Assembly (NCBI GenBank): GCA_018902385.1
Contig: JABSSW010000002.1
Location: forward strand, 620,001-684,000
Length of the DNA: 64,000 nucleotides
Source: Physcia stellaris
Lineage: Eukaryota > Ascomycota > Lecanoromycetes > Caliciales > Physciaceae
Direction of reading: 5' to 3'
The notes beneath the pieces are model-generated. The model was given only the letters and a program-made list of their open reading frames with translations. It ran no database searches and had not been told where the DNA came from. Position numbers and translations under genes: made by a program. The first letter of the stretch is position 1. The number at the start of each line of letters is the position of its first letter. Below, in pieces: positions 1 to 27,760 of the stretch.

Positions 1-3000
1 TCATTGATAAAGAAATTGCGCAATTTGTATGCAACATGTTGAGCATGAATTTCGTATTTTTATTAAAATCGAAATTCATTATCGAATTCGACGATCGTCA
101 GATTTTTTCAATAATTCATGTCATTTATTTCAAGTTGACAATTGATTTGCATTTCGAATTGACAGTTTTTTTGTTCATCATCGATCTGAACAATCATTCG
201 ATAATTTTAGAAAAATCGTGAATGAACAAACATGAAATTATTTTGAATATGATTTACGATAAATTGATTTTCAAATCGTTCAAATGTAATCATCATGACA
301 ATATATTCATCAAAACAATGCAAATTCGACGTTTGAAAATTTTTGATTCAAATCGTCGATAAAACGTATTTAATTGACGTCGCGATATTTTTTTATCGAA
401 AACAAATAACGCGAAACATATTGTTGCAATAAAATTTCGATATACGATTTTATTTCGTTCGCAATTTAGATTTTTAACGTTTTACGTACAAAACGAATCA
501 AACGTATTCGATTCAAAATGTTTCGATTGTTTTATTCATTCGAAAATCGATCAAGATGACGAGTCGTTCGTCGTTGAATCAAATCATTCAAAAATTGATA
601 TCACAACGATTACGAAACGACATTCGTCAAAAAAAAATTTGAAAAAACAACGCAACAAGCGTTGAAAAATCAAAAACAACAATTCGAAATTTTTTCATTT
701 TCGAAATTGAATTCAAACGATTCGATGAATATCGCGATAATTGATGCGATTTTTTTGTTTATTCGTCGATTTCAAAATCGAAAACAAAAAATGCAATGTT
801 TTTTCATTACGATTAATCAAATCGATTTCGCGTTCAAAACATTGCGAACAAATTTTGAATCGTTGAAAATTGTTGTCATGATCAAAAAAATTTTGAAACA
901 CGAACAAATCAAATCGATTCTTGAACGTATAATGAAAAAAATATCGAAATATTTCAAACATTTGACAAAAATATTTGATTTTTAAAAAACAATTGAATTG
1001 TCGTCGCATCGAATTTACGATCACAAAATCGAATTTTTAAACGATAACAATACATTGTTTCGAAATCGAATATATTTTTTGTTCGAACTCAAACTTCAAA
1101 AATTCAAAAATATTTGAAAAATAATTTTCAAAAAAATTTCATCGTATTCAATCAAACAACATACGTTTCGTTCGTTTTATTTGCAATCAAATCAAATGAT
1201 CAATTACGTTTGTGTGTGAATTATCGACGATTTAATCACATCACGAAACGCAATCGATATTTCATTTTTTGATCGAAAAATTTTAATTAAAATGCAAAAT
1301 TGCAAATATTTGATCAAACTGAATATCATATCGATTTTCAACAAATTTCGAATGAAGTGAAAAAAATGAAAAATTCATCACATTCGTTATTTTCATGAAA
1401 TCGTACAAATATCGAATATTATTTTTCGAATTGATCAACGAATTCGCGAGTTGACAACATTACATGAACGATTTGTTGTTCAATTTTTTGAACGATTTTT
1501 GTCAAATTTATTTAAATGATATTTTCATTTACAGCAAATTCAAAAAAAACACATCGTTCACGTTCGTAAAATGTTGAAAAAATTCAAAAAAATCGAATTA
1601 CAAATGAATATTGAAAAATGCGAATTTTTCAAAAAAAAAATGACATTTTTGAACGTCATATTATCGATGAATGATTTTCGCATGAATTCGAAAAAAATAA
1701 AAATCATTGTCAATTGAAAACGTTTTACAAATTTGAAAAAAATGCAAATTTTCGTGAATTTCGTCAATTTTTACAAACGATTCATTCGTGACTTTTCGAA
1801 AAAAATTCGAATTTTCATTCGAATGATCAAAAAATTCGTGAATTTCGAATGAATTGTTGAAATCGAAAAAATTTTCAATTTTTTCAAAAAAACGATGATC
1901 GAAATTTTCATATTACGACATTACGATCGAATCAAACAAATCATTTTGAAAATTGATTTTTTTGATTACGTCAATGCGAAAATATTATTTCAATACGACG
2001 ACGAAAAATTTTGCATTTCGTTGTTTTTTATAATCGCAACATGATTTCAATCGAATGTAAAATTTATGACAAAAAATTGTTGATCATTATTCGTTGTTTA
2101 AAACATTGACGTTTTGAATTTGAAAACATTGAAAAATCGATCAAAATTTTCATCGATCACAAAAATTTGAAAATTTTCATAACGTCAAAAAATTAATTTT
2201 TCGTCAAATTCGTTGAACAGAAATTTTTCGAAAGTTCAATATTGTCATTCAATTTCAATTCGAAATTCAAAACGTTAAAACAAATGTTTTGATTCGTATG
2301 TTTGATTCACGATCAAAAACGATATTGACGAACGACATCAATATCGAAAACAAATATTGTTTATTTCGAAACGATTCGAAATTCACGCGATGAAAATTGA
2401 CGAATTTATTTATGAACGAGTTTTTGTTGTCAATCGAGTTGACGATGATTGCACGATTTATCGTGAAATTATCGAACAAAATTTCATTTCAATGAATGAA
2501 ATTGATTTACGAAATTGCATTGAAAAAAACGACGTTTTGTATCGAAAAAATCGACTTTGAATGTTCGTCGATGTTTTTTTATTCGTTGATTTTTTCAGAA
2601 AAATTCATGAATTTTTTGTTTCGAAACATTCAAATTTTAATCGCATGAAAAATTTTATACGTCGTGATTATTATTGATTCAACATGCGTAAAACGATTCG
2701 TCGATACGTACGTAATTGTCATGAATGTCAACGCACGAAAATTTTCAAAAATCGCAAAAACGATTTATTTATTTTTTTGATTATATTTTTGCAACGTTGA
2801 ATCGACATATCAATGAATTTCATTATCGAATTGTTCGACGTTCACGATCATAATGTCATATGCACGATAATTGACAAATTTTAAAAAACGTCATTACGTG
2901 TTTTGTATCGTCGACGACGAAAATATCAATGTTGAAATCACGATCAAAATATTCATCAATTACGTATTTCGTACACATGAATTATTTTTTTCGATAACGT

Positions 3001-3910
3001 TTGATCGAGATTTTCAATTCATATCGTTCGTTTGACAAACATTTTGTCGAATTCTCGACATCAAATGTAAATTTTTCATCGTTTTTCATTCAGAAATCGA
3101 TGAACAAATCGAAAAAGTCAATCAAAATATCGAAAGACAATTGCGACAGTATTGCAATTACATGCAGAACGATTGAAACGTTTGATTGTTCATGATCGAA
3201 TTTGCAAACAACAACGCAATATTTGCAACAACAAAATTATTTTCATTTTTCATCAATAAAAATTTTCATTTTCGTATGAGTTTTTCATCAAATTTTATTT
3301 CGTATGTTACAACGAGAAAGCGATTTTTGATCGTTAAAACAAAAAATATTATCGACACAATACAAAATATTCTCAATTACGTACGAGATCATGCAGAAAT
3401 GATTCAAAAGCGTATGACAATTCAAATCAACAAATATCGAAAAATCGTAAAGTACGTCGAAAAAAATTTCGTTTTTTTCGATCGACGAAACATCAAAACG
3501 ATCAAATCGTTTGACAAGCTCGATGACAAAAAATTAGATTTTTACAAAATATTACAACGTATGAGCAACTCATATCGATTCGAATTGTTTGAAATCATGC
3601 ATATTTACGATGTGTTTCATTGTTGATTTTTGCGCAAAGATTTTCGTGATTCATTCGAAAATCAAATCAATAAATTTTTTGATTTTGTCATAATCAATGA
3701 AAACTTCGAATGAAAAATGAACGATATTTTGAAATTTCGATATTATTACAATCGTTTTCAATATCGTGTCAATTGATCGAATTGATCGCATGATCGAACA
3801 TAATATTATATCGACAACGAAAAATTTGATAATGTTCGCGACGTAATAAACGATTTTTATCGCATTCATTTCACGATTGCAAATTCAAAATCGTTCAAAA
3901 CGTTGATTTC
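1..3910 (+). pseudogene. Pol remnant of copy 1 (PR end, RT, RNase H, integrase, chromodomain-like)
   Basis: The protease tail is at 1-220. Reverse transcriptase follows at about 1,140-1,530 and carries a YLND box where an active enzyme has YxDD. RNase H lies near 1,900-2,110, ending where a conserved Trp reads TGA. The integrase zinc region still shows CHECQRT near 2,715-2,735, followed by the core domain near 2,815-3,200. The C-terminal part runs to a TGA at 3,624-3,626, again at a probable ancestral Trp. A chromodomain-like stretch follows near 3,690-3,900, interrupted by TGA codons at Trp-like positions. Several frame changes also occur. This is a dead copy with no intact ORF. Confidence 0.85.
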
Positions 3911-4346
3911 AATATTTCAAAACGTCGTCAACGAATCAAATTTTTCGATGAATCGTCGTCGTTTTCGAAAAAAGATCGTCATGTTGACATTAATCGAAAT
4001 TACATTCGATTAAAATTTGAAAATTTCGAATTCAATACATTCATTTCGATTTCATTTTCGCAACGTTCTCGCGATTTTTAATTTTCGTTATCGTTTCGAT
4101 GTTATTTACAATCAGAATTTACGTCGCATGAAGAATTGAATCGTGTCAAAAACATTTTCAAAAATTGTTGTCAAATTTTATCGAATTTTGAAACAATAAC
4201 GAAACATTTGAAAATGAAAAATGATAATCGTGAAATTTTTGAATTTTGCAAACATTCAAATCAATCGACAAGATTTTCAACAAAATTTTTCAATTTCGAA
4301 ATAACAACGAATCGTCGAAACGACGCTCGCGAAAAGAAGAAAATAA

Positions 4347-4570
4347 TGTTACGAACATGTTTGACAAATAAGTTTGACAAATAGATAATTGATATGATAT
4401 GTGATCGAGCAACGAGTTATGCTTTAATTTTACGTTGAAATTAACGTGATTTGAAACTTGACGTCGCACACTGTTTGCAATTTCAACATTTTGTATTTAT
4501 TTGTTTCTGCAGACTTATTGTCTTCGTCTAGTTAATCAATAATACGTCTATTCAAGCACGATTCATGATA
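4347..4570 (+). repeat. 3' LTR of copy 1 (224 bp)
   Basis: The repeat starts TGTTACGAACATG and ends ATTCATGATA. It matches the 224-bp LTR at 10,872-11,095 and, in reverse complement, the 235-bp LTRs of copy 3. It is joined directly to a further copy of its own last 51 bp, which is the left end of copy 2. Confidence 0.85.
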
Positions 4571-4621
4571 GTTTTCGTTTAATTAATCAATAATACGTTT
4601 ATTCAAACACGATTCATGATA
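4571..4621 (+). repeat. Partial LTR end (51 bp) forming the left edge of copy 2
   Basis: These 51 bases repeat the last 51 bases of the preceding LTR (4,520-4,570) with a few C/T and G/A differences. They are followed by the same leader sequence that follows the 5' LTR of copy 3. Copy 2 therefore has only the terminal quarter of a 5' LTR of its own. This fits recombination between elements or a local tandem duplication at the LTR end. Confidence 0.75.
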
Positions 4622-4891
4622 TTACAATAAGTTTTTAATTTTATCGTTCGTCGTGATACGCGAACGTTCAAAAATAAAATTTCAAATCGAACAAGTTTTT
4701 TTGACGAAACAAACAACGAAAAACTTTGTTGATCAAACAAACGATCAAAAGTTTTTTTGACGAAACATTTGACGAAAATCGTGAAATAACAAATCGAATT
4801 TTCACGCAAACGACGATATTTTCGACGATAAAAAAAAATTGATTCGATTATTTTTTTTTTTTTATCATTTTTCAACTTTTCATTTCTAATT

Positions 4892-6350
4892 ATGATTCGA
4901 AATCATCACGAAACAATTTTTTTCGAATTTTCTATTTCGATGAAACAACGTTTCAAAACGTTACGTTTCAATGTGAATCGTATGTTACAAAAAATCAATG
5001 ACAATTTTTTCGACGAGAATTTCGTCGAACAATTCAAACGTCGTCGATTTGTTTCAACGATAATTCATAAAAATGAAAAATGAAAAAATCATTTATTTTT
5101 GAACATCGTCATCATCGATCAATTGAAATGATAAATCAATCAAAAAATCATCGATTTTTGAAAAAAAATTTGATCGATTACGCATTGATCGTGACAATTA
5201 TTTGAACGTTTTGATTCAATATCAAAATTTATACAATATCGTCAACGTCGATCGTGACGAACTGATCAATACAAACGTTAAATTCGATAAAATTCGTAAA
5301 AAATAAATACATTGAAAACTAATTACGAACAAAAACGTGATCGATTTTTATCAAACAAACAAAATTACATTTTTTTCAAAAAAAATCATGACGTTTTGTT
5401 AATCACGATTCGCGATCGTACACGAAATTTTGATGACGACGATGAAAACAACGACGACGAAATCAACGTAATTAATTTTTTCAATAAAAACAAACGACGT
5501 TCAAAAATTCATTCAGATTTTTTTTTAAACAATCGATGAAATGAAATTTATTTGACGTGTTTGAAAAACAAAAATGCATAATAAAATGACGATTAACGTC
5601 GATCATTACGACACGAACATAATCGCAATCATTATTGTGATTGATTGAATTGAAAATAATGTCGATAATCACATACAATCGATACGTGATATCGACATGA
5701 ATTATTTCAAAAATTGACATATGATATTGAAATTTTTGAATTTCATTTTCGAAAATTTTGATTTCAAACACAATATGCGTATTCAATTTCGAACATTGAT
5801 CATAAATATTCAGAATTTTCAATTTTTTTATTTTATTTTTTTTCGTTTTAACAATTCAATCGATTATAGCGAAATCATCAAAATCGAAAAATTAATGAAA
5901 AAAATTTCCTGAAATTTGAAAAAGACGATGAATGTATATTTTCGCGAATTCATTACGTTCGACGAAATTCGAATCATTTTGCAACAAATATACAATCGAC
6001 AATCAAATTTTCGAAAAAAAAAATCGCGACACGTTAACAACGTTTTGAATTGTTTCAATTCAAATCAATTTTTGTCGTTTCGATTTCGATATTTTTTACG
6101 AAATTTGTTATTTCGATTTTTTTCGTGAAATTTGTCGTTTATTTTCATTTTAACGTTGAAATCAAAATTCATAATTCGATGACAAACAAATTAATCGTCA
6201 TGAACAAATATTTTATATGCGATGAAATCGATTACGTATGAAAAATGTGTTCGAACGTTTACAAACATCAAAAACGTCATTGACACAAAATGCAAATGTT
6301 TTACATGAACATGATCAACGAATCGAACGAATTTGATTCGAAAAATTGAT
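4892..6350 (+). pseudogene. Gag remnant of copy 2 with a ruined zinc knuckle
   Basis: Broken frames run from an ATG at 4,892 through a charged, coiled-coil-like middle (about 5,312-5,540) to a zinc-knuckle position near 6,205-6,260. In copy 2 the knuckle has lost its first Cys (now Tyr) and its His (now Tyr). The equivalent place in copy 3 keeps the C-x2-C-x4-H-x4-C spacing around an in-frame TGA. Assignment as Gag rests on this knuckle and on position between leader and protease. There is no intact protein. Confidence 0.75.
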
Positions 6351-6410
6351 AATTCACATCAAAAACGCGATTGATAAATATTTAAAAAAATTTTTATTCA
6401 TCATGACGAA

Positions 6411-9400
6411 TTGTTTGATTTTTTTGTCAAACGATTTTTAATCATCAATTGTACGTTGTCATTTAACGATAATAAACATAAATTAAAAATTTTAATAAAC
6501 ATTAATGCAATTGATTATGTTTTCATTGATAAAAAAATTGCGCAATTTGTATGCAACATGTTGAACATGAATTTCGTATTTTTATTAAAATCGAAATTCA
6601 TTATCGAATTCGACGATTGTCAAATTTTTTCAATAATTCATGTCATTTATTTCAAGTTGACAATTGATTTGCATTTCGAATTGACAATTTTTTTGTTCAT
6701 TATCGATTTAAACAATCATTCGATAATTTTAAAAAAATCGTGAATAAACAAACATGAAATTATTTTGAATATAATTTACGATAAATTGATTTTCAAATCG
6801 TTCAAATATAATCATCATGACAATATATTCATCAAAACAGTGTAAATTCGACGTTTGAAATTTTTTGATTCAAATCGTCGATAAAACGTATTTAATTGAC
6901 GTCGCGATGTTTTTTTATCGAAAACAAATAACGCGAAACATATTGTTGCAATAAAATTTCGATATACGATTTTATTTCGTTCGCAATTTAATTTTTCAAC
7001 GTTTTATGTACAAAACGAATCAGACGCATTCGATTCAAAATGTTTCGATTGTTTTATTTATTCGAAAATCAATCAAAATGACGAATCGTTCGTCGTTAAA
7101 TCAAATCATTCAAAAATTAATATCACAACGATTACGAAAACGACATTCGTCAAAAAAAAAATTTGAAAAAACAACGCAACAAACGTTGAAAAATCAAAAA
7201 ACAACAATTCGAAATTTTTTTATTTTCGAAATTGAATTCAAACGATTCGATGAATATCGCGATAATTAATGCGATTTTTTTTTGTTTATTCGTCGATTTC
7301 AAAAATCGAAAATAAAAAAAACAATATTTTTTTATTACGATCAATCAAATCGATTTCGCATTCAAAACATTGCGAACAAATTTTGAATCGTTAAAAATTG
7401 TCGTCATGATCAAAAAAATTTTGAAACACGAACAAATCAAATCGATTTTTGAACGTATAATGAAAAAAATACTGAAATATTTCAAACATTTGTCAAAAAT
7501 ATTCGATTTTCAAAAAAAATCAATTGAATTGTCGTCGTATCGATTTTACGATCACAAAATCGAATTTTTAAACGATAACAATATTTTTTGTTCGAATTCA
7601 AATTTCAAAAATTCGAAAAAATATTTGAAAAATAATTTTCAAAAAAATTTTATCGTATTCAATCAAACAATATACGTTTCGTTCGTTTTATTTGCAATCA
7701 AATCAAATAATCAATTACGTTTGTGTGTAAATTATCGACGATTTAATCACATCACGAAACGCAATCGATATTTCATTTTTTTGATCGAAAAATTTTTAAT
7801 TAAAATGCAAAATTGCAAATATTTGATCAAACTGAATATTATATCGATTTTTAACAAGTTTCGAATGAATGAAAAAAATGAAAAATTTATTATATTCGTT
7901 ATTTTCATGAAATCGTACAAATATCGAATATTATTTTTCGAATTGATCAACGAATTCGCGAATTGACAACATTACATAAACGATTTGCTGTTCAATTTTT
8001 TGAACGATTTTTGTCAAATTTATTTAAATGATATTTTTATTTACAACAAATTCAAAAAAAAAACACATCGTTCACGTTCGTAAAATGTTGAAAAAATTCA
8101 AAAAAATCGAATTACAAATGAATATTGAAAAATGCGAATTTTTCAAAAAAAAAATGACATTTTTGAACGTCATATTATCGATAAATGATTTTCGCATAAA
8201 TTCGAAAAAAATAAAAATCATTGTCAATTGAAAACGTTTTTCAAATTTGAAAAAAATACAAATTTTCGTAAATTTCGTCAATTTTTACAAACGATTCATT
8301 CGTGATTTTTCGAAAAAAATTCGAATTTTCATTTGAATGATCAAGAAATTCGTGAATTTCGAATGAATTGTTGAAATCGAAAAAATTTTCAATTTTTTCA
8401 AAAAAACGATGATCGAAATTTTCATATTACGACATTACGATCGAATCAAACAAATCATTTTGAAAATTGATTTTTTTGATTACGTCAATGCAAAAATATT
8501 ATTTCAATACGACGACGAAAAAATTTTATATTTCGTTGTTTTTTATAATCGCAACATGATTTCAATCGAATGCAATTACGAAATTTATAACAAAAAATTG
8601 TTGATTATTATTCGTTGTTTAAAACATTGACGTTTTGAATTTAAAAACATTAAAAAATTGATCAAAATTTTCATCGATTACAAAAATTGAAAAATTTTCA
8701 TAACGTCAAAGAAATTAATTTTTCGTCAAATTCGTTGAGCAGAAATTTTTTCGAAATTCAATATTGTTATTCAATTTCAATTCGAAATTCAAAACGTTAA
8801 AACAAATGTTTTGATTCGTATATTTGATTCACGATCAAAAAACGATATTGACGAACGACATCAATATCGAAAACAAATATTGTTTATTTCGAAACGATTC
8901 GAAATTCACGCGATGAAAATTGACGAATTTATTTATGAACGAGTTTTTGTTGTCAACAAAATTTACGATAATTGCACGATTTATCGTGAAATTATCGAAC
9001 AAAATTTCATTTCAATGAATGAAATGAATTTACGAAATTGCATTGAAAAAAACGACGTTTTGTATCGAAAAAATCGATTTTGAATGCTCGTCGATATTTT
9101 TTTATTCGTTAATTTTTTCAAAAAAATTCATAAATTTTTTGTTTCGAAACATTCAAATTTTAATCGCATGAAAAATTTTATACGTCGCGATTATTATTGA
9201 TTCAACATGCGCAAAACGATTCGTCGATATAAACGTAATTGTTATAAATGTCAACGTACGAAATTTTTCAAAAATCGCAAAAACGATTTATTTATTTTTT
9301 TGATTATATTTTTGCAACGTTAAATCGACATATTAATGAATTTCATTATCGAATTGTTCGATATTCACGATCATAATATCATATACACGATAATTGACAA

Positions 9401-10430
9401 ATTCAACAAAAAATGTTATTACGTGTTTTGTATTGTCGACGACGAAAATATCAATATTGAAATCACGATCAAAATATTCATCAATTACGTATTTCGTATA
9501 TATAAATTATTTTTTTCGATAACGTTTGATTGAAATTTTCAATTCATATTGTTCGTTTGACAAATATTTTGTCGAATTTTCGATATCAAATGTAAATTTT
9601 TTATCGTTTTTCATTTAAAAATCGATAAACAAATCGAAAAAATCAATCAAAATATCGAAAAACAATTGCGACAATATTGCAATTACATGCAAAACGATTG
9701 AAACGTTTGATTGTTCATGATCGAATTTACAAACAACAACGCAATATTTGCAACAACAAAATTATTTTCATTTTTTATCAATAAAAATTTTCATTTTCGT
9801 ATAAATTTTTTATCAAATTTTATTTCGTATGTTACAACGAAAAAACGATTTTTAATCGTCAAAACAAAAAATATTATCGACACGATACAAAATATTTTCA
9901 ATTACGTACGAAATCATGCAAAAATAATTTAAAAACGTATAACAATTCAAATTAACAAATATCGAAAAATTGTAAAATACGTCAAAAAAAATTTCGTTTT
10001 TTTCGATCGACGAAACATCAAAACGATCAAATCGTTTGACAAGCTCGATGACAAAAAATTAGATTTTTACAAAATATTACAACGTATGAGCAACTCATAT
10101 CGATTCGAATTGTTTGAAATCATGCATATTTACGATGTGTTTCATTGTTGATTTTTGCGCAAAGATTTTCGTGATTCATTCGAAAATCAAATCAATAAAT
10201 TTTTTGATTTTGTCATAATCAACGAAAATTTCGAATGAAAAATGAACGATATTTTGAAATTTCGATATTATTACAATCGTTTTCAATATCGTGTCAATTG
10301 ATCGAATTGATCGCATGATCGAACATAATATTATATCGACAACGAAAAATTTGATAATGTTCGCGACGTAATAAACGATTTTTATCGCATTCATTTCACG
10401 ATTGCAAATTCAAAATCGTTCAAAACGTTG
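6411..10430 (+). pseudogene. Pol remnant of copy 2 (PR, RT, RNase H, integrase, chromodomain-like)
   Basis: An aspartic-protease-like block lies at 6,411-6,743. Its catalytic triad reads Asn-Ile-Asn instead of Asp-Ser/Thr-Gly. RT lies at 7,370-8,060 (conserved stretch QLRLCVNYRRFNHITKRNR) with YLND in place of YxDD. RNase H is at 8,409-8,630, and the integrase core starts near 9,336. The C-terminal and chromodomain-like segments run to about 10,430. Segments end at TGA codons exactly where Gypsy proteins normally have Trp, for example 7,964-7,966, 8,628-8,630 and 10,149-10,151. Pro, Gly and Ala are nearly absent from the translations, as expected if CCN, GGN and GCN codons were converted. Confidence 0.88.
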
Positions 10431-10871
10431 ATTTTAATATTTCAAAACGTCGTCAACGAATCAAATTTTTTAACGAATTGTCGTCGTTTTCGAAAAAAAA
10501 TCGTCATGTTAACATTAATCAAAATTACATTCGATTAAAATTTGAAAATTTCGAATTCAATATATTCATTTCGATTTCATTTTCGCAACGTTTTCGCAAT
10601 TTTTAATTTTCGTTATCGTTTCGATGTTATTTACAATCAAAATTTACGTCGCATGAAAAACTGAATCGTGTCAAAAACATTTTCAAAAATTGTTGTCAAA
10701 TTTTATCGAATTTTGAAACAATAACGAAACATTTGAAAATGAAAAATGATAATCGTGAAATTTTCGAATTTTGCAAATATTCAAATCGATCAACAAAATT
10801 TTCAACAAGATTTTTCAATTTCGAAACAACAACGAATCGTCGAAACGACGTTCGCGAAAAAAAAAAAATAA

Positions 10872-11095
10872 TGTTACGAACATGTTTGACAAGTAAATCG
10901 AACAAGTAAATAATTGATATAATATATGATCAAACAACGAATTATGTTTTAATTTTACGTTGAAATTAACGTGATTTGAAATTTGACGTCGCACATTGTT
11001 TGCAATTTCAATATTTTGTATTTATTTGTTTTTGCAAATTTATTGTTTTCGTTTAATTAGTCAATAATACGTCTATTCAAACACGACTCATGATA
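10872..11095 (+). repeat. 3' LTR of copy 2 (224 bp)
   Basis: It has the same 224-bp length and the same ends (TGTTACG at the start, CATGATA at the end) as the LTR at 4,347-4,570, and differs by scattered C/T and G/A changes. It marks the left border of the inverted-repeat spacer. Confidence 0.85.
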
Positions 11096-11404
11096 ATTAT
11101 CGTTTTTGACGACAAAATGCATAAATACATTAAACGAAAATAATGATTAACGCGTGAAAAATAAATCAATTATGTTCGTCAACATTCGAATTTATTGTTT
11201 CAATGCATGATTACAAATGCGATAAAATCGTGACATCATTTTCTCAAAACGCACGCGAAAAATGAATTATTTTCACATTATTTGAATGATATTCGTTAAC
11301 AAATATTCAAAAAAAAATACAATGTTTTAATTTTCGTTGACGAAAATCGTTCGTCACGTCAATCACATCGATGATTAATAACGTCATCGTGTTCAAAAAA
11401 CGAT
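11096..11404. other. Spacer of the large inverted repeat (309 bp)
   Basis: This AT-rich segment between two convergent 3' LTRs does not match either element internally, as far as I can see. It contains no ORF of note. It shows the same scarcity of CpC and CpT as the elements, so it was mutated with them although it appears unique in this window. Confidence 0.6.
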
Positions 11405-11639
11405 TATCATGAATCGTGTTTGAATAAACGTATTATTGACTAGTTAAACGAAGACAATAAATCTGCAAAAACAAATAAATACAAAATGATGAAATTGTAA
11501 ACAATGTGCGAACGTCAAATTTCAAATCACATTAATTTCGTCAAAAAATTAAAACATAATTCGATTCAAACATATTTGTTTAATCATTTATTATATCAAT
11601 TATTTATCAATTATTTATTTGTCAAACATGTTCGTAACA
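11405..11639 (-). repeat. 3' LTR of copy 3 (235 bp)
   Basis: It is the reverse complement of the family LTR. It is 11 bp longer than the LTRs of copies 1 and 2 because a short AATTATTTATC-like unit is doubled near 11,600-11,620. The same extra unit is present in the 5' LTR of copy 3, so it predates that insertion. Confidence 0.85.
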
Positions 11640-12129
11640 TTATTTTTTTCTTTTCGCGAACGTCGTCTCGACGATTCGTTGTTGTTGCGAAATTTGAAAA
11701 TTTTGTTGAAAATCTTGTTGAAAATTTTGTTGATCAAATTGTATAATTGCAAAATTCAAAAATTTTACGATCATCATTTTTTATTTTTTAATATTTTAAT
11801 GACATTTCAACGTTCGATAAAATTTGACGACAATTTTTAAAAATATTTTTAACACGATTCAATTTTTTATGCGATATAAATTTTGATTGTAAATAACACG
11901 AAAAAAATAATAAAAATCGAATTGTTGAATAAAAATCGTGAAATCAAAAACAAATAAATGAAAATTGAATTCGTGACGTCAAATGTTAATCGAAAATAAT
12001 TTCGATTAATGTTAACATAACGATTTTTTTTCGAAAACGACGACGATTCGCTGAGAAATTTGATTCGTTGACGACGATTTGAAATATTAAAATTAATGTT
12101 TTGAACAATTTTGAATTTGTTGTCGTGAA

Positions 12130-15100
12130 ATGAATACGATGAAAATCGTTCATTACGTCGCGAACATTATCGAATTTTTCGTTATCGACATAATATCACG
12201 TTCGATCATGAAATCAATTCAATCAATTAACACGATATTAAAAACGATTGTAATGATATCGAAATTTCAAAATATCGTTCATTTTTCATTCGAAATTTTT
12301 GTTGATTATGACGAAATCGAAAAATTTATTGATTTGATTTTCGAAAAAATCACGAAAATTTTTGCAAAAAAATCAATAATGAAACACATCGTAAATTCGC
12401 ATGATTTTTGACAATTCGAATCGATAAAAATTGTTTTTACGTTTTAATATTTTGTACGAATTTAATTTTTTGTCATCAAATTTGTCAAATGATTTGATCG
12501 TTTTGATGTTTTATCGATTCAAAAAAACGAAATTTTTTTCGACGTATTTCACGATTTTTCGATGTTTGTTGATTTGAATTGTTATACGTTTTTAAATCAT
12601 TTTTGTATGATTTCGTACGTAATTGAAAATGTTTTGCATTGTGTCGATAATATTTTTTGTTTTAACGATCAAAAATCGTTTTTTCGTCGTAATATACGAA
12701 ATAAAATTTAATAAAAAATTCATACGAAAATGAAAATTTTTATTGATGAAAAATGATGATAATTTTGTTATTGCAAATATCGCGTTGTTGTTTACAAATT
12801 CGATCATGAACAATCAAACGTTTCAATCGTTTTGCATGTAATTGCAATATTGTCGCAATTGTTTTTCGATATTTTAATTGATTTTTTCGATTTGTTTATC
12901 GATTTTTGAATGAAAAACGATAAAAAATTTATATTTGATGTCGAAAATTTTGCAAAATATTTGTCAAACGAATAATATGAATTGAAATTTTCGATTTGAC
13001 GTTATAAAAAAAAAAAATTCATACGTACGAAACACGTAATTGATAAATATTTTGATCGTAATTTTCGCATTTGTATTTTCATCGTCGACGATGCAAAACA
13101 CGTAATGACGTTTTTTATTAAATTTGTCGATTATCGTGCAAATAACGTTGTGATCGTAAACGTTAAACAATTCGATAATAAAATTTATAAATATGTCGAT
13201 TCAACGTTGCAAAAAAATAATCAAAAAAATAAATAAATCATTTTTTCGATTTCGAAAAATTTTAATACGTTGACATTTATAACAATTACGTATGTATCGA
13301 CGAACGAATTTGCGTATATTGAATCAATAATAATCGCGATATATAAAATTTTTTATACGATTGAAATTTGAATGTTTCGAAATCGAAAATTCATAATTTT
13401 TTTTGAAAAAATCAATTAATAAAAAAACGTCGACAAACATTCATAATCGATCATTTCGATATAAAACATCGTTTTTTTCATTGCAATTTCGTAAATTGAT
13501 TTCGTTCATTGATGTAAAATTTTGTTCGATAATTTCACGATACGTCGTGCAATTATCATCAATTTTATTGATCGTCAAAACTCGTTCGTAAATAAATTCG
13601 TCAAATTTTATCGCGTGAATTTCGAATCGTTTTGAAATGAACAATATTTGTTTTCGATATTGATGTCGTTTATCAATTTCGTTTTTGAATCGAAAATCAA
13701 ACATACGAATCAAAATATTTGTTTTAACGTTTTGAATTTCGAATTGAAATTAAATAACAATGTTAAATTTCGAAAAAAATTTGCTCAACGAATTTGACGA
13801 AAAATGAATTTTTTTGACGTCATGAAAATTTTCAATTTTTTGTGATCGATGAAAATTTTGATCGATTTTTAATGTTTTCGAATTCAAAACGTCAATGTTT
13901 TAAACAACGAATGATAATTAATAATTTTTTGTTATAAATTTCGTAATTGCATTCGATTGAAATCATGTTACGATTATAAAAAACAACGAAATGCAACATT
14001 TTTTCGTCGTTGTATTGAAATAATATTTTTGCATTGACGTAATCAAAAAAATCGATTTTCAAAATAATTTGTTTTGTTCGATTGTAATGTCGTAATATGA
14101 AAATTTTCGTCATTGTTTTTTTGAAAAAATTGAAAATTTTTTCGATTTTTTCAATTTATTCGAAATTCACAAATTTTTTGATCATTCGAATGAAAATTCG
14201 AATTTTTTTCGAAAAATCACGAATGAATCGTTTGTAAAAATTGACAAAATTCACGAAAATTTGTATTTTTTTCAAATTCGTAAAACGTTTTCAATTGACA
14301 ATGATTTTTATTTTTTTCGAATTTATGCGAAAATCATTTATCGATAATATGACGTTCAAAAATGTTATTTTTTTTTAAAAAATTCGCATTTTTCAATATT
14401 CATTTGTAATTTGATTTTTTTGAATTTTTTCAATATTTTACGAACGTGAACGATGTGTTTTTTTTTGAATTTGTTGTAAATAAAAATATTATTTAAATAA
14501 ATTTAACAAAAATCGTTCAAAAAATTAAATAACAAATCGTTCATGTAATGTTATCAATTCGCGAATTCGTTGATCAATTCGAAAAATAACATTTGATATT
14601 TGTATAATTTTATGAAAATAACGAACGTGATAAATTTTTTATTTTTTTCATTCATTCGAAATTTGTTGAAAATCGATATAATATTCAACTTGATCAAATA
14701 TTTGCAATTTTGTATTTTGATTAAAAATTTTTCGATCAAAAAAATGAAATATCGATTGCGTTTCGTGATGTGATTAAAATGTCGATAATTCACACATAAA
14801 CGCAATTGATCGTTCGATTTGATTGCAAATAAAACGAACGAAACATATGCAATTTGATTGAATACGATAAAATTTTTTTGAAAATTATTTTTCAAATATT
14901 TTTTGAATTTTTGAAATTTGAATTCGAACAAAAAATATATTTTGTTTCGAAACAATGAATTGTTATCGTTTAAAAATTCGATTTTGTAATCGTAAAATCG
15001 ATGCGATGACAATTTAATTGTTTTTCGAAAATCGATTATTTTTGACAAATGTTTGAAATATTTGAATATTTTTTTCATTATGCGTTCAAAAATCGATTTA

Positions 15101-16127
15101 ATTTGTTCGTGTTTTAGAATTTTTTTGATCATGACAACAATTTTCAACGATTCAAAATGTGTTCGCAATGTTTTGAACGCGAAATCGATTTGATTGATCG
15201 TAATGAAAAAACATTGCATTTTTTGTTTTTTATTTTTGAAATCGACGAATAAATTAAAAAAAATTGCATCAATTATCGCGATATTCATTGAATCGTTTGA
15301 ATTCAATTTCGATAATGAAAAAATTTCGAATTGTTGTTTTTTGATTTTTCAACGTTTGTTGCGTTGTTTTTTCAAATTTTTTTTTTGATGAATGTCGTTT
15401 TCGTAATTGTTGTGATAACAATTTTTGAATTATTTGATTTTATAATTAACGATTCGTTATCGTCGTCGACGTTCGAATGAATTAAACATTCGAAACATTT
15501 CGAATCGAATACATTTGATTCATTTTCGATTGTAAAAAACAAAAATTTGATTTTGAAACGAAACAAAATGATATATCGAAATTTTATTATCGTTATATGT
15601 TTCGAATTGTTTTTTTGCGATAATACGATATCACGACGTCAATTAAATACATTTTATCGACGATTTGATTTGAAAATTTTCAAACGTCGAATTTGAACAA
15701 TTTGATTGAATATATTGTCATGATGATTGCATTTGAACGATTTGAAAATCAATTTATCGTAAATCATGTTCAATATGATTTCATGTTTGTTCATTTACGA
15801 TTTTTTTAAAATTATCGAATGATTATTCAAATCGATAATTAACAAAAAAACGATCAATTCGAAATGCAATTTTATTGTTAATTTAAAATATATGACGTGA
15901 ATTATTGAAAAAATTTGACGATCGTCGAATTCAATCAATGATTTCGATTTCAATAAAAGTACGAATTTCATGTTCAACATGTTGCATACAAATTGCGCGA
16001 TTTTTTTATCAATGAATGCATAATCAATTGCATCAATGTTTATTAAAATTTTTAATTTATGTTTATTATCGTTGAATGATAACGTACAATTAATAATTAA
16101 AAATCGTTTGATAAAAAAATCAAACAA
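12130..16127 (-). pseudogene. Pol remnant of copy 3
   Basis: On the - strand a protease-like block lies at 16,127-15,795, with the triad reading Asn-Ile-Asp. RT is at 15,306-14,554 and includes QLRLCVNYRHFNHITKRNR. RNase H is at 14,113-13,892, and integrase with its C-terminal part lies from about 13,713 down to 12,592. A chromodomain-like part lies near 12,130-12,411, where the + strand ORF is only its antisense. Stops and frame breaks interrupt all parts, and the terminal frames again stop at Trp-like positions. Confidence 0.85.
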
Positions 16128-16297
16128 ATCATCATCGTGAATAAAAAATTTTTTTAAACATTCATCAATCGCGTTTTTGATGTGAATTGTTAATTTTTCG
16201 AATCAAAATCATTCGATTCGACGATTAAATTCATGTACGATATTTGCATTTTGTGTCAATAACGTTTTTGATGTTTGTGATCGTTCGAACATTTTTT

Positions 16298-17650
16298 TCA
16301 AACGTGATTCAATTCGTTACATGTGAAACATTTGTTCGTGATGATCAATTTGTCGATTATCGAATCACGAATTTTGATTTCAACGTTGAAATGTAAATGA
16401 ATTGTAAATTTCACGAAAAAAATCGAAATGACAAATTTCGTAAAAAACATCGAAATCGAAACGACAAAAATTGATTTGAATTGAAACAATTCAAAACGTT
16501 ATTGACGTGTCGCGATTTTTTTTTTTCGAAAATTCGATTGTCGATTGTATATTTGTTGCAAAATGATTCGAATTTCATCGAACATGATAAATTCACGTGA
16601 ATATACATTCATTGTTTTTTTCAAATTTCAAAAAATTTTGTTCATCAATTTTTCGATTTTGATGATTTCGCTATAATCAATTGAATTGTTAAAACGAAAA
16701 AAAATGAAATAAAAAAATTGAAAATTTTGAATATTCATGATTAATGTTCGAAATTGATTACGCATATTGCGTTTGAAATCAAAATTTTCGTAAATAATGT
16801 TCAAAAATTTCAACATCATATATTAAATTTTGAAATGATTTATATCAATATCACGAATCGATTGTATGTGATTATCGATATCATTTTCAATTCAATCAAT
16901 CAAAATAATGATTGCGATTATATTCGTGTCGTAATGATCAACGTTGATCGTCATTTTATCGTGTATTTTTGTTTTTCAAACACGTTAAATGAATTTTATT
17001 TCATCGATGAATTTAAAAAAATTTGAATGTATTTTGAAACGTCGTTTGTTTTTTTGAAAAAAATTAATTACGTTGATTTCATCGTCGTTGTTTTTATCGT
17101 CGACGTTCGAATTTCGTGCACGATCGCGAATTTTGATCAACAAAACGTCGTGATTTTTTTTCAAAAAAATGTAATTTTTTTGTTTGATCAGAAATAAATC
17201 ACGTTGTTTTTCGTATTCGTTTTTCAAAATATTTAATTTTCGACGAATTTTATTTAATTCGACATTAATATTGATCAATTCGTCACGATCGACGTTGACA
17301 ATATTGTACAAATTCTGATATTGAATCAAAACGTTCAAATAATTGTCACGATCGATGCGTAATCGATCAAATTTTTTTAAAAAATCGACGATTTTATGAT
17401 TGATTCATCATTTCAATTGATCGATGATAACGATATTCAAAAAATAAATGATTTTTTCATTTTTCATTTTTATGAAATCGATCGTTGATACAAATCGACG
17501 ACGTTTGAATTGATCAGCGAAATTTTTGTCAAAAAAATTGTCGTTAATTTTATGCAACATACGATTCACGTTGACGCGTAACGTTTTGAAACGTTGTTTC
17601 ATCGAAATAGAAAATTCGAAAAAAATTGTTTCGTGATGATTTCGAATCAT
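16298..17650 (-). pseudogene. Gag remnant of copy 3
   Basis: Gag-like frames start at 17,650 (matching the frame at 4,892 in copy 2), pass through a charged coiled-coil-like stretch (17,338-16,985) and reach a zinc knuckle near 16,300-16,345. The knuckle shows CFTCNELNH followed by an in-frame TGA and then a Cys, which gives C-x2-C-x4-H-x4-C spacing. It is the best-preserved nucleocapsid signature in the window. The protein is not intact. Confidence 0.78.
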
Positions 17651-17880
17651 AATTGAAAATGAAAAATTGAAAATAATAAAAAAAAAATTAATCGAATCAA
17701 TTTTCGTTTTTTATCGTCGAAAATTTCGTCGTTGTTTCGTCAAAAAAAATTTCAAATCATTTGTTTGATCAGCAAAGTTTTTCGTCGTTTGTTTCGTCAA
17801 AAAAATTTGATCGATTTGAAATTTTATTTTTGAACGTTCGCGTATTTCGACGAGCGATAAAAATTGAAAATTTATTGTAA

Positions 17881-18115
17881 TATCATGAATCGTGCTTGAA
17901 TAAACGTATTATTGATTAATTAAACGAAAACAATAAGTTTGCAAAAACAAATAAATACAAAATGATAAAATTGTAAACAATATGCGAACGTTAAATTTCA
18001 AATCACGTTAATTTCGTCAAAAAATTAAAACATAATTCGATTCAAACATATTTGTTTAATCATTTATTATATCAATTATTTATCAATTATTTATCTGTTA
18101 GACATGCTCGTAACA
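17881..18115 (-). repeat. 5' LTR of copy 3 (235 bp)
   Basis: It is the reverse complement of the family LTR, ending (on its own strand) CACGATTCATGATA and followed by the leader TTACAATAAA. It pairs with 11,405-11,639, with the same length and the same 11-bp duplication. Confidence 0.85.
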
Positions 18116-18830
18116 ACGATTTCGAAATTTCGTATTACGAAAACGTTTTGATGTTTTTCGTGATTTCAATTAATTCGTTTTTTTGATTTTGTACAACAAT
18201 TCATAAACGAAAAATTGAAACGAATTGACAAAATCATTGAAAATGAAAAAAATGATTTTGACGTGAAAAACAAAATCGTTTGTTCTGTTGACAACAATTG
18301 TTTGTTTTATTGACAATATTAATTTTCGTGTCGTCATATATGATATTAAAACATTTTGTTCGATTGCGTCAAAAACGAAAATTGAAATCGTTTCGCGTTT
18401 GATTTCGAAAAAAAAAAATTCGAAATTTACGAAATCATCAATAAAAAATGAATTAACGAAAACGTTCATGACGTTATTGAAAATTTCAATCGACATTTGT
18501 TGAAAATGAAAAAAAATTTTGACGACATCAAAAATAAATATTACGAATTATGTGAAAACATGACGAATTGATTTTCGAAAAAACGATTTTTTATTTTCGA
18601 TCGATGATTAAATCAATTGAACAATTTCATTGATTTCATTCGTTAAAAAAAAACGCAAACGACGATATTGAAAATGCACAAAAAAACGACGAAATTGCTC
18701 GAAAAAAAATTAATTTTTCGAAAACGACGACGAAATAACGACGACGACGACGAAAAAAAAAACGAAAAAATAAATAACAATTCAAAAAATCAAAACATCA
18801 AAAAACATTATACAGAAATTTGATGACGAC
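18116..18830 (+). pseudogene. AT-rich remnant of an unidentified coding sequence
   Basis: This stretch lies outside the retrotransposon LTR but has the same mutational signature. On the + strand one frame from about 18,395 to 18,775 reads as a charged, basic-then-acidic protein end, interrupted only by TGA codons that would be Trp if unmutated. Earlier pieces (around 18,170-18,300) continue in shifted frames. The - strand ORF at 18,496-18,170 is probably its antisense. I do not recognise the product. It could be another transposon or a host gene caught at the edge of the mutated block. Confidence 0.4.
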
Positions 18831-19146
18831 GAGATTGCGACAACGAAATTTATCTGAAAAAAATGTTTTTTTCGCTGTTTATTATATGAGTCACATCTAA
18901 AATTATCTGAAACACGATTTGCATATGATGGAGATTGCAGTGGCTGGGCAGGCTTTCCTGGTATTACTAAAAAATAAAAAACGTCTGCAGTATAGAAGCA
19001 TCCAAACCTACTAGAAGACTTTGGGATGACCCCGCTAAACTGCTCGACTATTGGCACTGGTATTTCACGCTTGCAGTCTGTGTATATCCTGGATACGATC
19101 ATGGATATCGTACTGATTTAGTTTCGCTCGCTTAGAGCATTCACGG

Positions 19147-20496
19147 ATGGAGCAAATTGGCGTCTATGTGGTGACCTACAATTGCGCAAGAACCCTCGTT
19201 CAACCAGACGTCTTCGCGCGACACCTGTTCGATGCCTTACGAGATTCCCAACCACCCGAGATCTTGATCATCTCGCTCCAGGAAATTGCTCCGATCGCCT
19301 ATGCGTTCCTTGGAGGCTCCTATCTAGTGCCCTACTTCGACCGAATACGCCATGCTGTCAACATTGCTGCTGCATCTCTCAGAAATGCCAGCTACATCAA
19401 TGTGATCACACGCAATGTCGGAATGACAGCTATCGCTGCATTTGTGCTCGAGAAGAGATCGCAGGATATTGAATGGATCGAAACCGCAGGGGTTGGTGTA
19501 GGGGTTTATGGGATGGGCAACAAGGGGGCCGTAGGCTTGAGGCTTGGGTACGCCACTGAAGATGAGGATCTTGAGCTCTCTATAGTCGCTGCCCATCTGG
19601 CCCCCATGGAGGATGGTCTATCCAGGAGAAATGAGGATTGGAAGAATATTTGTCGAAGATTGGTCTTTACACCTGTCAAAGAGAGAGCTGTCCGTAGCGC
19701 CACCGCACAGCAGGTTCCTCGAGCGAACGACGGCGACGATAACGCACCATTGCTTCAGGGACAACCGGATAATTCGACTACACCATCCTCAGGCTTATTT
19801 TCTCCAAGATCTCATCTCATACTTGCTGGAGATCTCAACTACCGCACATCTCGAATTAAGCCCTCTCCGACCGACTATCACCTATTTCCTCAGCCGTGTG
19901 AGGACCAAAATAACCATCGTCACTTTTCAAATCTTCTCAAGGAAGATCAGCTTTTGCGCGAGCTGAAGGCACAGAGAACGTGCCATGGCTTCCGAGAAGC
20001 CTCGATCAACTTTCCACCAACGTACAAATATTCCGACAAGCAGCGAGCTGTCGCTGAGACAGATGATGGTGTGATGTGGGACTGGGCCAAGCACCGCTGG
20101 CCAAGCTGGTGTGATCGCATACTGTACACTGACTTGCCTACCTGGATGAAGGCCTCTGATTCACCAGCGTCCCTAGAGGTCCACGGGTATACCGCCCTGC
20201 CGTTGATGTCCACATCCGATCATCGTCCGGTCGCTTTGTCACTCGCTATACCTGCTAAAGCGATACCGATACCTAACAATCACGATTCAGCAGACGATGC
20301 TCGTCTTTCTCCGCCCTTCGATATCGATCCACAATGGAGAAGTAAGAGGGCCGCGGCAAGAAGAAGGGAGCTTGTCGTCGGCATAATAGCGTATCTAGGT
20401 CTTACCTGGGAAGGAAGAACCGTCCTGATCGCTACAGCAATCGGTGCACTTGGCGGATGGTGGATCATCAGCAGTCTGCTGATAGTGCAGAGTTGA
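19147..20496 (+). CDS. Inositol polyphosphate 5-phosphatase family protein, C-terminal membrane anchor
   Basis: This intronless gene encodes 449 aa. The protein has the endonuclease/exonuclease/phosphatase fold of inositol polyphosphate 5-phosphatases, which remove the 5-phosphate from phosphoinositides or soluble inositol phosphates. Visible motifs are LQE (44-46), GNKGAV (124-129), GDLNYR (228-233), PSWCDRIL (319-326) and SDHRPV (357-362), which supply metal and substrate ligands. A low-complexity loop lies at 190-220. After the catalytic domain come a basic patch (398-407) and two hydrophobic stretches (about 409-420 and 426-447), suggesting anchoring to an internal membrane. The start is supported by the typical first beta strand right after the Met. 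It is the first gene beyond the AT-rich block, about 320 bp from its border. Family assignment is firm; the exact substrate is unknown. Confidence 0.9.
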   Translation: MEQIGVYVVTYNCARTLVQPDVFARHLFDALRDSQPPEILIISLQEIAPIAYAFLGGSYLVPYFDRIRHAVNIAAASLRNASYINVITRNVGMTAIAAFVLEKRSQDIEWIETAGVGVGVYGMGNKGAVGLRLGYATEDEDLELSIVAAHLAPMEDGLSRRNEDWKNICRRLVFTPVKERAVRSATAQQVPRANDGDDNAPLLQGQPDNSTTPSSGLFSPRSHLILAGDLNYRTSRIKPSPTDYHLFPQPCEDQNNHRHFSNLLKEDQLLRELKAQRTCHGFREASINFPPTYKYSDKQRAVAETDDGVMWDWAKHRWPSWCDRILYTDLPTWMKASDSPASLEVHGYTALPLMSTSDHRPVALSLAIPAKAIPIPNNHDSADDARLSPPFDIDPQWRSKRAAARRRELVVGIIAYLGLTWEGRTVLIATAIGALGGWWIISSLLIVQS

Positions 20497-21400
20497 GAGC
20501 AAAAATAGTATTTGGGTTTATCTGTGAAACGGACATCGCGATATGCCTTTGGATAGAGAATCACGGGTTGAAATGCTCAAGTCCAGACACGTCAAGGGGT
20601 TATGGTCTCACAGCAACGGGAAGTGTTTTCGCATGAATCCGTTTCTCCCGACACCAAGCGACTTTCCGACAGTCCTCCACCATCAGCAGACTTCAATCGC
20701 TGCACCTGGGAGCTAACTTCACACGATTTGGAACCCCCTAGCTGATACAGAGAAGCATAGTAGCTTGGAGGTTGAAGTGTAGCTTCCGATCCCATGATCG
20801 ATAGGGGTTGTGTGATCTCGCTGCACTGCTACTAACAGTAATCTGCGCTTGGGAAGACAAGGGCATATGTGATCGAAAATTCACAACAGCGAAGTCGAAC
20901 GCTGTTTATGAATAAATGTGGTAGACCGTGGCGATTGTACAACCACACCTTGATGGCTGTGCGCAGCCCCTATGAACACATGTCCCTGCCGTGAATGGAA
21001 GCAACATCATCCTCCAACAACTGTTCATGGCATCATAACTCTGACATGAAACGCAATCCATTCACAATGCCATTCCTGGACAACGGCCACCGAGTCATGG
21101 ACCCTTACGTTTCTAAGTGATGCTTGTTTCAATGCCATGTTTCTGGTGGTTGCGAATGTGGACAGTTCGAGCGCAAATCGCATTAAAACATGTTCTCCAA
21201 CGTCTCCAACACCTTGAAACAGCTTGATCATTGGGCTGTGCTCCTCAAGCTACTCGGCCCGTTGCATGAATCCCTCTCCACGATGTTCACATGGATGGAC
21301 ATCCCATGCGATCCAGCTCGAAATTTGAATATATAAAGGGTCTCCAAGTATGCCCTCTGAATGAGGCCAGGATTTTATACATGTCTTCTCTCTGCAATTT

Positions 21401-21957
21401 ATGATGGAATCTTCTTACACTTCATTTCCTACTTTTAAACCAACCCGACGCCCTTCTATTGCACAGTCGGTCAGGCAAAGCTTCTCTTCATCTTCATCTT
21501 CTCTTACTTCTTACCTTGTGCCGGCACCAAGGACCCCTCAACCAGCAAGTAAGCCTGGGCATCGCTCCAGTCACTCTCGCTGAAAATGTTTTATTCGTGT
21601 ACAAATTACGTTAGGGGGTGCCAGGGACGAAGCAAAGACCCTGGCGGTCGTTGCTCCGGCTGCACAAAACCATCTCGAGGCCTAGGACACCGGCGGTCCA
21701 ATTGCGCCTTGCGCCCTTACGCTATGGCGACGACATCGTTAGTGCTGTCTACGTCGCCAGCGAATTCGCCTCCATCGTCACCCATATCTTCTAATTCACC
21801 TCCCTCACACTCAAGATCATCCTCATACTCCTCACTCGCCTCAGACTCTTCACTCGCGCCTCCTACGATACCCGCTCCGTCCTTCCAGAGCATTTATACG
21901 CACATCAAGAAGCCTCGCGTCCCGAAGAGATTCAACCATATCCATCGACGGCGATAA
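21401..21957 (+). CDS. Hypothetical small Ser/Pro-rich protein (doubtful)
   Basis: Two adjacent ORFs may form one small gene. The first (from ATG 21,401) gives a Ser-rich start and runs into a GTAAGC donor at about 21,550. The second (21,586-21,957) is rich in Ser and Pro and ends with a basic tail. A possible acceptor TTAG at 21,611-21,614 leads into a frame that stops after about 23 codons, so the two ORFs do not join cleanly through that site. A weaker AAG acceptor at 21,637 would join them in frame. I do not recognise either part. The Ser richness could simply reflect CT-rich DNA, so this may not be a gene. Confidence 0.22.
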
Positions 21958-22667
21958 TGGAGCTGCTCGGGAATCAAACATTAAAGTCTTACTGTACAAC
22001 CACGACTCTCACTGAATGCATTGTACGGACGTTATGATCTTTAAACAACCTGGGTACACAATGGCGCACATGGACAAGGCACGAGATACCCAATGATCAC
22101 TCGTTCAAACAGGCAAGGGGACCAAGGCGTTCGTTCAATCAGGCGGCGTTAAAACATTCACTATGGAATAGTGTGGCAAAGGGAGAAGGCTACTCCTCCA
22201 AGGCGCACCAAAGGGAGGAACAAATAGTGCTAGGTCTAGGCTCACTCACAAAAACATGTTCAAGTATTGTAATTTGCGTTCTCCCTGTGAATCTGTGTCC
22301 TTTTCCTTTGGACTTTATTAAGTTTCGTGCCAGAAACAAGTTACTGTACTATGGATATCGTGGCAGTTGCCCTGTAAATACCGAATACGTGCTTCTACTA
22401 TTTGCCACCGTGTCTTGTGACATCAACTCCAACGCAGGATCAGTTGATGGCGTCACTCCTGTATTCCGAAGCCCACCATGGAATGAAACGCTAAGAACAG
22501 GTCGACGTGGACATGGTTGAGCCTGGCCCTCCTTGTAAACTCCATCGAGCCCAACAAACAGAGGCGCTTCAGGTCCCATGAAAGTCTGGCCCAGTGACGC
22601 GCGTCTAGCTGCTGATCATAGATGATGAATCGCAATAATGGAACTTCAAGCGCAAAATTAAGCCTCT

Positions 22668-22793
22668 GTGGATTTGTACAATTCATGTTGCCTACTCTTG
22701 AACAATTGCTTCATTCCTTTTGGTGGAAAGACCAGCCGAGTGACACGCGTCGTGGATTGTACAATTGATATTCCCTATCTCTAGGATAATTGC
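22668..22793 (+). repeat. Diverged short direct repeat (two units of about 42 bp)
   Basis: Units at 22,668-22,710 and 22,752-22,793 share GTGGATTGTACAATT followed by alternating conserved blocks and an ATTGC end. A GTGACxCGCGTC block also precedes each unit nearby (22,592 and 22,738). No function is evident. Confidence 0.45.
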
Positions 22794-23291
22794 ATGGTAC
22801 CTTGTCGTCACGTTTTGAGGGAAGTATACAGCACCGCTTACCCGACCCTGGGGATATGGGGGAGCCCGCTTCATGTGAGGCTTGGATGCTTTTTGTGATA
22901 TGGCAAAGTCGTGATATGCATAATGAAGGTACGGTATGCTCTCCGTGATGAGAAGAGAAGCATCATTGAGTTACCAGTCGTAGATATTCCTCGATTCGAT
23001 GAATTCGACGACTGGTGTTCTTTCTATCGATATGCTTGCTATCTATAGAGTAGGATAGTACGATGGGTATACGCTGTGACGCAGGAGGTATCATTGTTAG
23101 GCGACAAAGAGAGGCAAGCCAATGATGATGCCGGTGAAAGGATTCGTCACCACGTCGCTTGTGAGTTGGTCAAACAAGGCTAGCGTCATCTGGACTGCCA
23201 CCCCCTCCCTTCAGCCAACTGCGTTCTGGCTACTTCTCTTCTACTCACTACCTACAACCACAACACTCTAAGAATAATAAGAGAACACAAT

Positions 23292-27701: not shown

Positions 27702-27760
27702 TTCAACCCACAATCAACGAGTGGAGTAGGAGGCTCAACCCATATTCAACCAGTGGAGTA
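27702..27760 (+). repeat. Imperfect direct repeat of 27 bp
   Basis: The units 27,702-27,728 and 27,734-27,760 share CTCAACCCA, then TCAAC, then AGTGGAGTA, with four or so mismatches. They lie upstream of the Cys-rich gene and could be paired regulatory sites or a chance duplication. Confidence 0.5.

Follow-up and report, generated by a model that had tools for sequence, protein, structure and literature searches.

The described processes closest to the one presented here are forms of repeat-induced point mutation (RIP). In the available text of PMC5496416, the RIP of Neurospora crassa prefers CpA, followed by CpT, CpG and finally CpC, and that of Trichoderma reesei acts on CpA and CpG about equally, then on CpT and least on CpC. 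According to a survey of 1,239 species (PMC12543289), RIP-like defences share a CpA preference. Here, we analyse a stretch of 64,000 nucleotides from the ascomycete Physcia stellaris (assembly GCA_018902385.1, contig JABSSW010000002.1, positions 620,001 to 684,000, forward strand), called the window below. The retrotransposon copies in its first 18.9 kb, like many related repeats of the genome, have lost nearly all cytosines that precede a pyrimidine (CpY) through C-to-T change, whereas CpA and CpG are largely kept.

The hypermutated tract covers positions 1 to 18,900 of the window and has no strand. It is defined by dinucleotide counts and by a profile of its edge in 100-base bins: CpC and GpG are gone except for one site, CpT and ApG are scarce, and CpA and CpG are retained. 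Positions 1 to 18,830 contain 2,408 C and 2,352 G, with one CC (at position 5,908) and no GG (both 0.00 of expectation), 55 CT (0.06) and 88 AG (0.10). Chance is excluded, since about 308 CC and 294 GG are expected from the base composition. CA (1,149; 1.26), TG (1,062; 1.23) and CG (1,202; 4.0) are not reduced, and TA is low (1,102; 0.42). The decay of CpG to TpG and CpA that marks CpG methylation is thus not what is found, as CG stands at four times its expectation and CpG is changed at only 2–8% of sites in the copies compared below. The initial annotation had counted 40 C in seven lines of the tract, 19 before A, 21 before G and none before C or T; a recount gave identical numbers. Its remark that G nearly always follows T or C applies to 2,264 of the 2,352 G. 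Over the whole tract, the depletion is stronger than had been stated there.

The tract ends abruptly. CC and GG are absent from all nine 100-base bins between 18,001 and 18,900 and total 7–12 per bin in the five that follow (from 18,901), so that the switch to normal composition spans about 100 bases near 18.9 kb. The GC content is 25% in positions 1 to 18,830 and 51% in positions 19,001 to 64,000. In positions 18,831 to 30,000 and 30,000 to 64,000, CC, CT, GG and AG all lie at 0.93–1.12 of expectation. The single-copy DNA adjoining the repeats is spared at the one edge examined, where the gene starting at 19,147 has a normal composition.

The direction of the change was determined by comparison with L036 (G000 C5:1165021-1168497), a relative of the window family that is not mutated and that served only as a yardstick. 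It has a GC content of 0.52 and normal CC and CT, and it is 69–76% identical to the 30 fetched copies of the family (L005–L034). Four further copies, L065–L068, were chosen as the nearest mutated matches, and a second unmutated relative, L037 (C12:58811-62278), provides a control pair with L036. One alignment, the best, was used per locus, and coverage is partial for L007, L019, L021, L032, L067 and L068. Against L036, the C-to-T fraction per copy in L005–L034 is 0.94–0.99 at CpC, 0.74–0.98 at CpT, 0.05–0.19 at CpA and 0.03–0.08 at CpG. In L065–L068, which are partly mutated, the corresponding values are 0.77–0.91, 0.44–0.65, 0.03–0.07 and 0.02–0.05. The control pair L036/L037 differs by 2–4% in each context (CpA 3%, CpG 2%). 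When L005–L034 are pooled with the window tract, 97.1% of 15,000 CC sites, 91.8% of 13,900 CT sites, 11.3% of 14,426 CA sites and 4.5% of 14,281 CG sites are changed, and the reverse T-to-C change amounts to 0–3% by context. As the pooled set counts the window copies twice (L005 and L031 are window loci), we prefer the per-copy figures.

Comparison with the unmutated relative shows that CpC and CpT were lost by C-to-T change rather than being scarce through inherited bias. Over all 34 copies the change reaches 77–99% at CpC and 44–98% at CpT, which bears out the proposal of near-saturating mutation of C before a pyrimidine in repeats. The same proposal held CpA and CpG to be partly affected. 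This holds weakly for CpA (3–19% against 3% in the control pair), which may be a very weak target, as it exceeds the control in the most mutated copies. In most copies it does not hold for CpG, whose values are close to plain divergence, being 2–8% in the copies and 2% in the control. The two outcomes named beforehand as contrary to the proposal, an ancestral copy already poor in CpC and CpT and mutation highest at CpA, were not encountered: L036 is normal in both dinucleotides, and CpA is the most mutated context in none of the 34 copies.

The partly mutated copies establish the order of the targets as CpC > CpT >> CpA and CpG. In L065–L068, the rate at CpC is 2.0–3.0 times that at CpT, which in turn is about 40–170 times that at CpA once the CpG value is subtracted. 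The base on the 5′ side has a small effect (NCC 0.80–0.89 and NCT 0.43–0.61, both lowest after G), while the 3′ base makes the difference between 0.03 and 0.85. The rare CpA changes have a context of their own and are commoner before C: CAC is changed at 0.12 and CAA, CAG and CAT at 0.04–0.06 in L024, L025, L028, L030 and L033, and in L065–L068 the values are 0.08 for CAC and 0.02–0.05 for the other CAN.

The neighbour rule bears on the type of enzyme involved. C5-cytosine methyltransferases have 3′ specificity, and APOBEC-type deaminases have 5′ specificity. A methyltransferase is therefore favoured by the 3′ rule and the slight 5′ influence. The alternative is a cytidine deaminase, for instance of the OTT_1508 type, which would mutate the repeats without any methyltransferase. 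The genome contains three matches to this family (PF14441, the only deaminase family searched), all in long stop-free frames (G000 C38:375945, C34:399643 and C17:41218). The runs of C are also relevant here. Stepwise change was simulated for six copies, and at the first C of CCC followed by a purine the observed fraction is 0.60–0.83, compared with 0.66–0.87 in the stepwise model and 0.84–0.97 in a model using the original 3′ base. These runs behave as if the 3′ base were read after its own change, and direct deamination would give the same result. However, the stepwise model fits CCC and not CCT, where the observed change exceeds its prediction in five of the six copies. The stepwise reading of C runs is thus only hinted at, and a CCC context that is itself slow may be an alternative. 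Given also that DNA transposons are mutated, so that the process is not confined to cDNA, we regard a deaminase as unlikely. The look for cytidine deaminase homologues suggested in the initial annotation thus led to three genes; the 3′-neighbour rule speaks against an enzyme of the APOBEC type.

Both strands of the copies are mutated, and the changes come in clusters. Among 14 copies, the correlation across CpT sites is 0.04–0.33, except for the sisters L065 and L066 (0.79); the copies have therefore been mutated largely independently. The sisters can be compared site by site. L066 carries 108 C-to-T changes that are absent from L065, at 56 of 80 CpC, 47 of 301 CpT, 3 of 498 CpA and 2 of 492 CpG sites. 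Of the 103 changes at CpY, 98 are confined to a pair of tracts, one about 0.3 kb and the other about 1.0 kb long, and 85 of these 98 are on one strand, which also had more open CpY sites; outside the two tracts, just 5 of 194 CpY sites are changed. L065 has 28 CpY changes not found in L066, and in its reference interval 1–700 CpC is mutated at 11 of 53 sites on one strand and at 57 of 64 on the other.

Such clustered, strand-biased changes fit discrete attacks better than a slow clock. They bear on the idea that DIM-2 methylates CpY in heterochromatin and that 5-methylcytosine then deaminates slowly and spontaneously, with no active mutator. In its favour, a DIM-2 relative is present in the genome, Neurospora DIM-2 is described as CpT-preferring in the accessible text of a review (PMC13297926), and CpA changes are commoner in the most mutated copies. 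A clock would nevertheless spread its changes, which is not the distribution seen in the sisters, and CpY is near saturation while other changes are few (T-to-C in L030 is 1.3%, or 22 of 1,659). We consider slow deamination improbable. An artefact of sequencing, of base calling at modified bases or of consensus polishing is highly improbable, as both strands are changed, the extent at CpT differs from 0.44 to 0.98 among largely independent copies, the changes are clustered in tracts, and normal single-copy DNA adjoins the hypermutated tract.

The depletion extends to other transposons. A search of the genome with the reverse transcriptase (RT) profile RVT_1 yielded 527 candidates, of which 150 were scored as matches, the majority carrying TGA stops; the top 30 of these provided the loci that were fetched. 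Among these, 24 have a (CC+GG)/(TC+GA) ratio of at most 0.17 and a TpA/ApT ratio of 0.37–0.45, and six (L035–L038, L049 and L063) are normal or nearly so, at 0.68–1.01 for the first ratio. A search with DDE_1 gave 10 matches, and seven stretches were fetched. Five show the same depletion, with a ratio of 0.011 or less; another is intermediate (0.478), and the last is near normal (0.622). Since DNA transposons are also depleted, the process does not depend on reverse transcription. A gain of TpA, as in CpA-type RIP, is seen in none of the 24 mutated RT loci. Ordinary CpA-type RIP, misread through base composition, would agree with the RID-like and DIM-2-like genes of this genome, as these also occur in fungi with CpA-type RIP. 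It is scarcely credible for the loci examined, with CpA retained at 81–97% in 34 copies and TpA/ApT in the mutated RT loci far from the RIP threshold of 0.89.

The coding damage differs as well. Along the frame of L036, the 34 copies contain 478 new stops, of which 392 are TGA, 84 TAA and 2 TAG; TGG turned into TGA accounts for 380, an excess that the CpY rule predicts. As a separate observation, one RT match (L051, G000 C57:264754-265218) is free of stops, although its locus is strongly CpY-depleted; loss of CpC alone does not wreck every reading frame.

Standard indices give another picture of the tract. RIP thresholds in the accessible text of PMC2621366 are a TpA/ApT of at least 0.89 and a (CpA+TpG)/(ApC+GpT) of at most 1.03. 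Positions 1 to 18,830 have values of 0.42 and 1.35 and a composite index of −0.93 (−0.61 in positions 19,001 to 64,000). By these values, the tract scores as free of RIP despite heavy mutation. If the present reading is true, surveys may have overlooked similar systems, because CpA-based indices rate their repeats as RIP-free.

Candidate enzymes were found with the methyltransferase profile PF00145, which gave four matches at three places in the genome. The initial annotation had advised looking for Rid and Dim-2 homologues, and one DIM-2-like and two RID-like genes are indeed present, the RID class being presumed from sequence motifs. The DIM-2-like protein (L002) has as its top PDB match 9bap (608 bits; entry title DNA (cytosine-5-)-methyltransferase), which we take to be a fungal DIM-2. 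The RID-like proteins lie on C6 (513 amino acids as modelled) and C5 (798 amino acids, with the N-terminus open) and share 39% identity across 307 amino acids. The position of an intron and a region at the N-terminus are common to the two, and both proteins retain SPPCQ, a PQxRxRV-like block and IGNAVPP. Immediately after SPPCQ, the two diverge strongly.

Taken together, the sequences probably reflect a RIP-type, repeat-directed C-to-T defence that would use a C5-cytosine-methyltransferase machine with a CpY target rule and act in episodic, strand-biased hits. Repeated DNA would be recognised and its cytosines converted to thymines by this machine, whose methyltransferase would most likely be one of the RID-like pair and less likely DIM-2. 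The target would be a C with a pyrimidine on its 3′ side, CpC being changed about two to three times faster than CpT, with CpA almost spared and CpG spared. Each episode would be strand-biased and strike part of a copy, and successive episodes would lead to saturation. We infer repetition as the trigger, the sexual cycle as the time of action, and the identity of the acting enzyme. As to the latter, a RID-class protein is the most likely mutator, with DIM-2 second. We lean, with somewhat less assurance, towards a RIP pathway re-specified to require a 3′ pyrimidine, with CpC its best and CpG its worst target, which reverses the RIP preferences that we found described. The natural candidate for such a re-specified mutator would be one or other of the diverged RID-like paralogues.

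Several observations weigh against this reading. L036 and L037, which are 95% alike over 3,477 bases, have no CpY excess despite their numerous mutated relatives, and four further RT loci and one DDE_1 locus are unmutated. Some repeats therefore escape; L036 and L037 are possibly recent arrivals or escapees. The strand bias within the two L066 tracts is moderate (28/41 vs 3/10, p 0.036; 57/100 vs 10/36, p 0.003), and the tract limits, like the strand example in L065, were picked post hoc. At nine sites, all in one strand sense, L065 has CpA where L066 has CpG, a difference that lies outside the CpY rule. The misfit of CCT to the stepwise model, described above, belongs here too, and the RID/Masc1 class of the C6 and C5 proteins is presumptive, being assigned by motifs.

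The tract itself is made of three copies of a long terminal repeat (LTR) retrotransposon. Copy 1 (positions 1 to 4,613, + strand) is truncated by the start of the window; in self-comparison, 1–4,580 matches 6,523–11,105 at 94%, and 1–4,613 matches 16,015–11,367 in inverted orientation at 88%. Copy 2 (4,614 to 11,105, + strand, left limit approximate) was delimited by direct repeats and self-comparison and follows copy 1 in tandem (spacing about 6.52 kb), with 4.6 kb shared at the identity just given. Copy 3 (11,367 to 18,238, − strand) is inverted and has LTR-like direct repeats at 11,405–11,778 and 17,881–18,238, which are 80% alike. With the 2,000-base piece 1,001–3,000 as query, at least 39 other long matches at 91–97% were found in the genome, one of them within the window (40 of 406 candidates scored).

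Positions 18,120 to 19,003 (no strand) form a stretch common to another repeat, with 11 other matches in a genome DNA search, the best being C7:310521-311406 at 90%. The mutation fades inside this stretch. Its 36-base end (18,968–19,003) recurs inverted at C2:610166-610201, about 28 kb upstream and beyond the window. This may indicate that the retrotransposon copies are nested in a larger element with inverted ends. The unaffected neighbour gene used as a control (19,147 to 20,496, + strand) encodes an Exo_endo_phos2 domain (Pfam PF22669, 5.7e-51). An Rfam scan of the window gave no match at gathering scores.

How RID-type proteins choose their targets and mutate them is an open question, and in vitro catalysis by such proteins is listed as not detected in the review table of PMC13297926, as far as its text was available. 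Domain swaps would allow target choice to be tested in a natural system that combines a sharply inverted rule with two RID-like paralogues and with copies in all stages of mutation. The loci examined here also conflict with the conclusion on a shared CpA preference in the accessible text of PMC12543289.

Other reports likewise depart from CpA. Available passages of PMC4352252 describe CpA, CpT and CpG signatures, associate RID-class genes with those at CpA and CpT, place CpT first in Magnaporthe oryzae and Botrytis cinerea T4, and confine RID/Masc1 to Ascomycota among the genomes surveyed. In the accessible parts of PMC6180176 and PMC10998396, CpT is changed alongside CpA and TpA/ApT is raised. 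As far as the corresponding texts go, CpT to TpT dominates the alignments of RIP-capable control fungi in a RIPper survey (PMC7882544), and CpT lies above CpA in Neurospora Tad1 (PMC2621366). CpT as a main target is therefore not new. Partial sources also mention high CpT in S. nodorum, undepleted CpA in M. haptotylum and CpC to TpT double changes in Monilinia, which are in tension with CpA as the plain rule or with novelty here. A table for Rhizoctonia solani AG8, again from a source seen in part, speaks against novelty: single-nucleotide polymorphisms at CpC have a mean spacing of 214 bp and those at CpG 370 bp, although these are heterozygous and occur in genes and repeats alike. In open-licence PMC text, our literature search found no described system with CpC first and CpA and CpG spared; this combination is what appears to be new here.

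APOBEC-type editing of retroelements is likewise a C-to-T hypermutation with a neighbour rule. It follows the 5′ neighbour and acts on one cDNA strand, unlike the present process, with its 3′ rule, its action on both strands and its inclusion of DNA transposons. The CpG-directed mutation of transposons in basidiomycetes (Microbotryum and R. solani AG8) also changes C to T in repeats; however, CpG is the target named in the available text, and it is the best-kept site here. The CpT-biased RIP-like signatures of M. oryzae, B. cinerea T4, Colletotrichum truncatum, Anisogramma anomala and the RIPper controls are similar in that CpT to TpT is a major change and RID-class genes are present. In those accounts, as far as they were accessible, CpA accompanies CpT, TpA/ApT is raised where given and CpC is not named as a main target, whereas in the present case CpC is the leading target and CpA is retained. 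RIP in T. reesei, demonstrated in crosses, shares the C-to-T change of duplicated DNA, but its order of targets is nearly the reverse, CpC being the least preferred there and the most preferred here. With RIP in N. crassa, the likeness includes C:G to T:A change on both strands of repeats, the sparing of single-copy neighbours, and RID-like and DIM-2-like genes; the differences are the order CpC > CpT >> CpA and CpG and the lack of a TpA gain. The process in P. stellaris works like RIP, with an inverted target rule.

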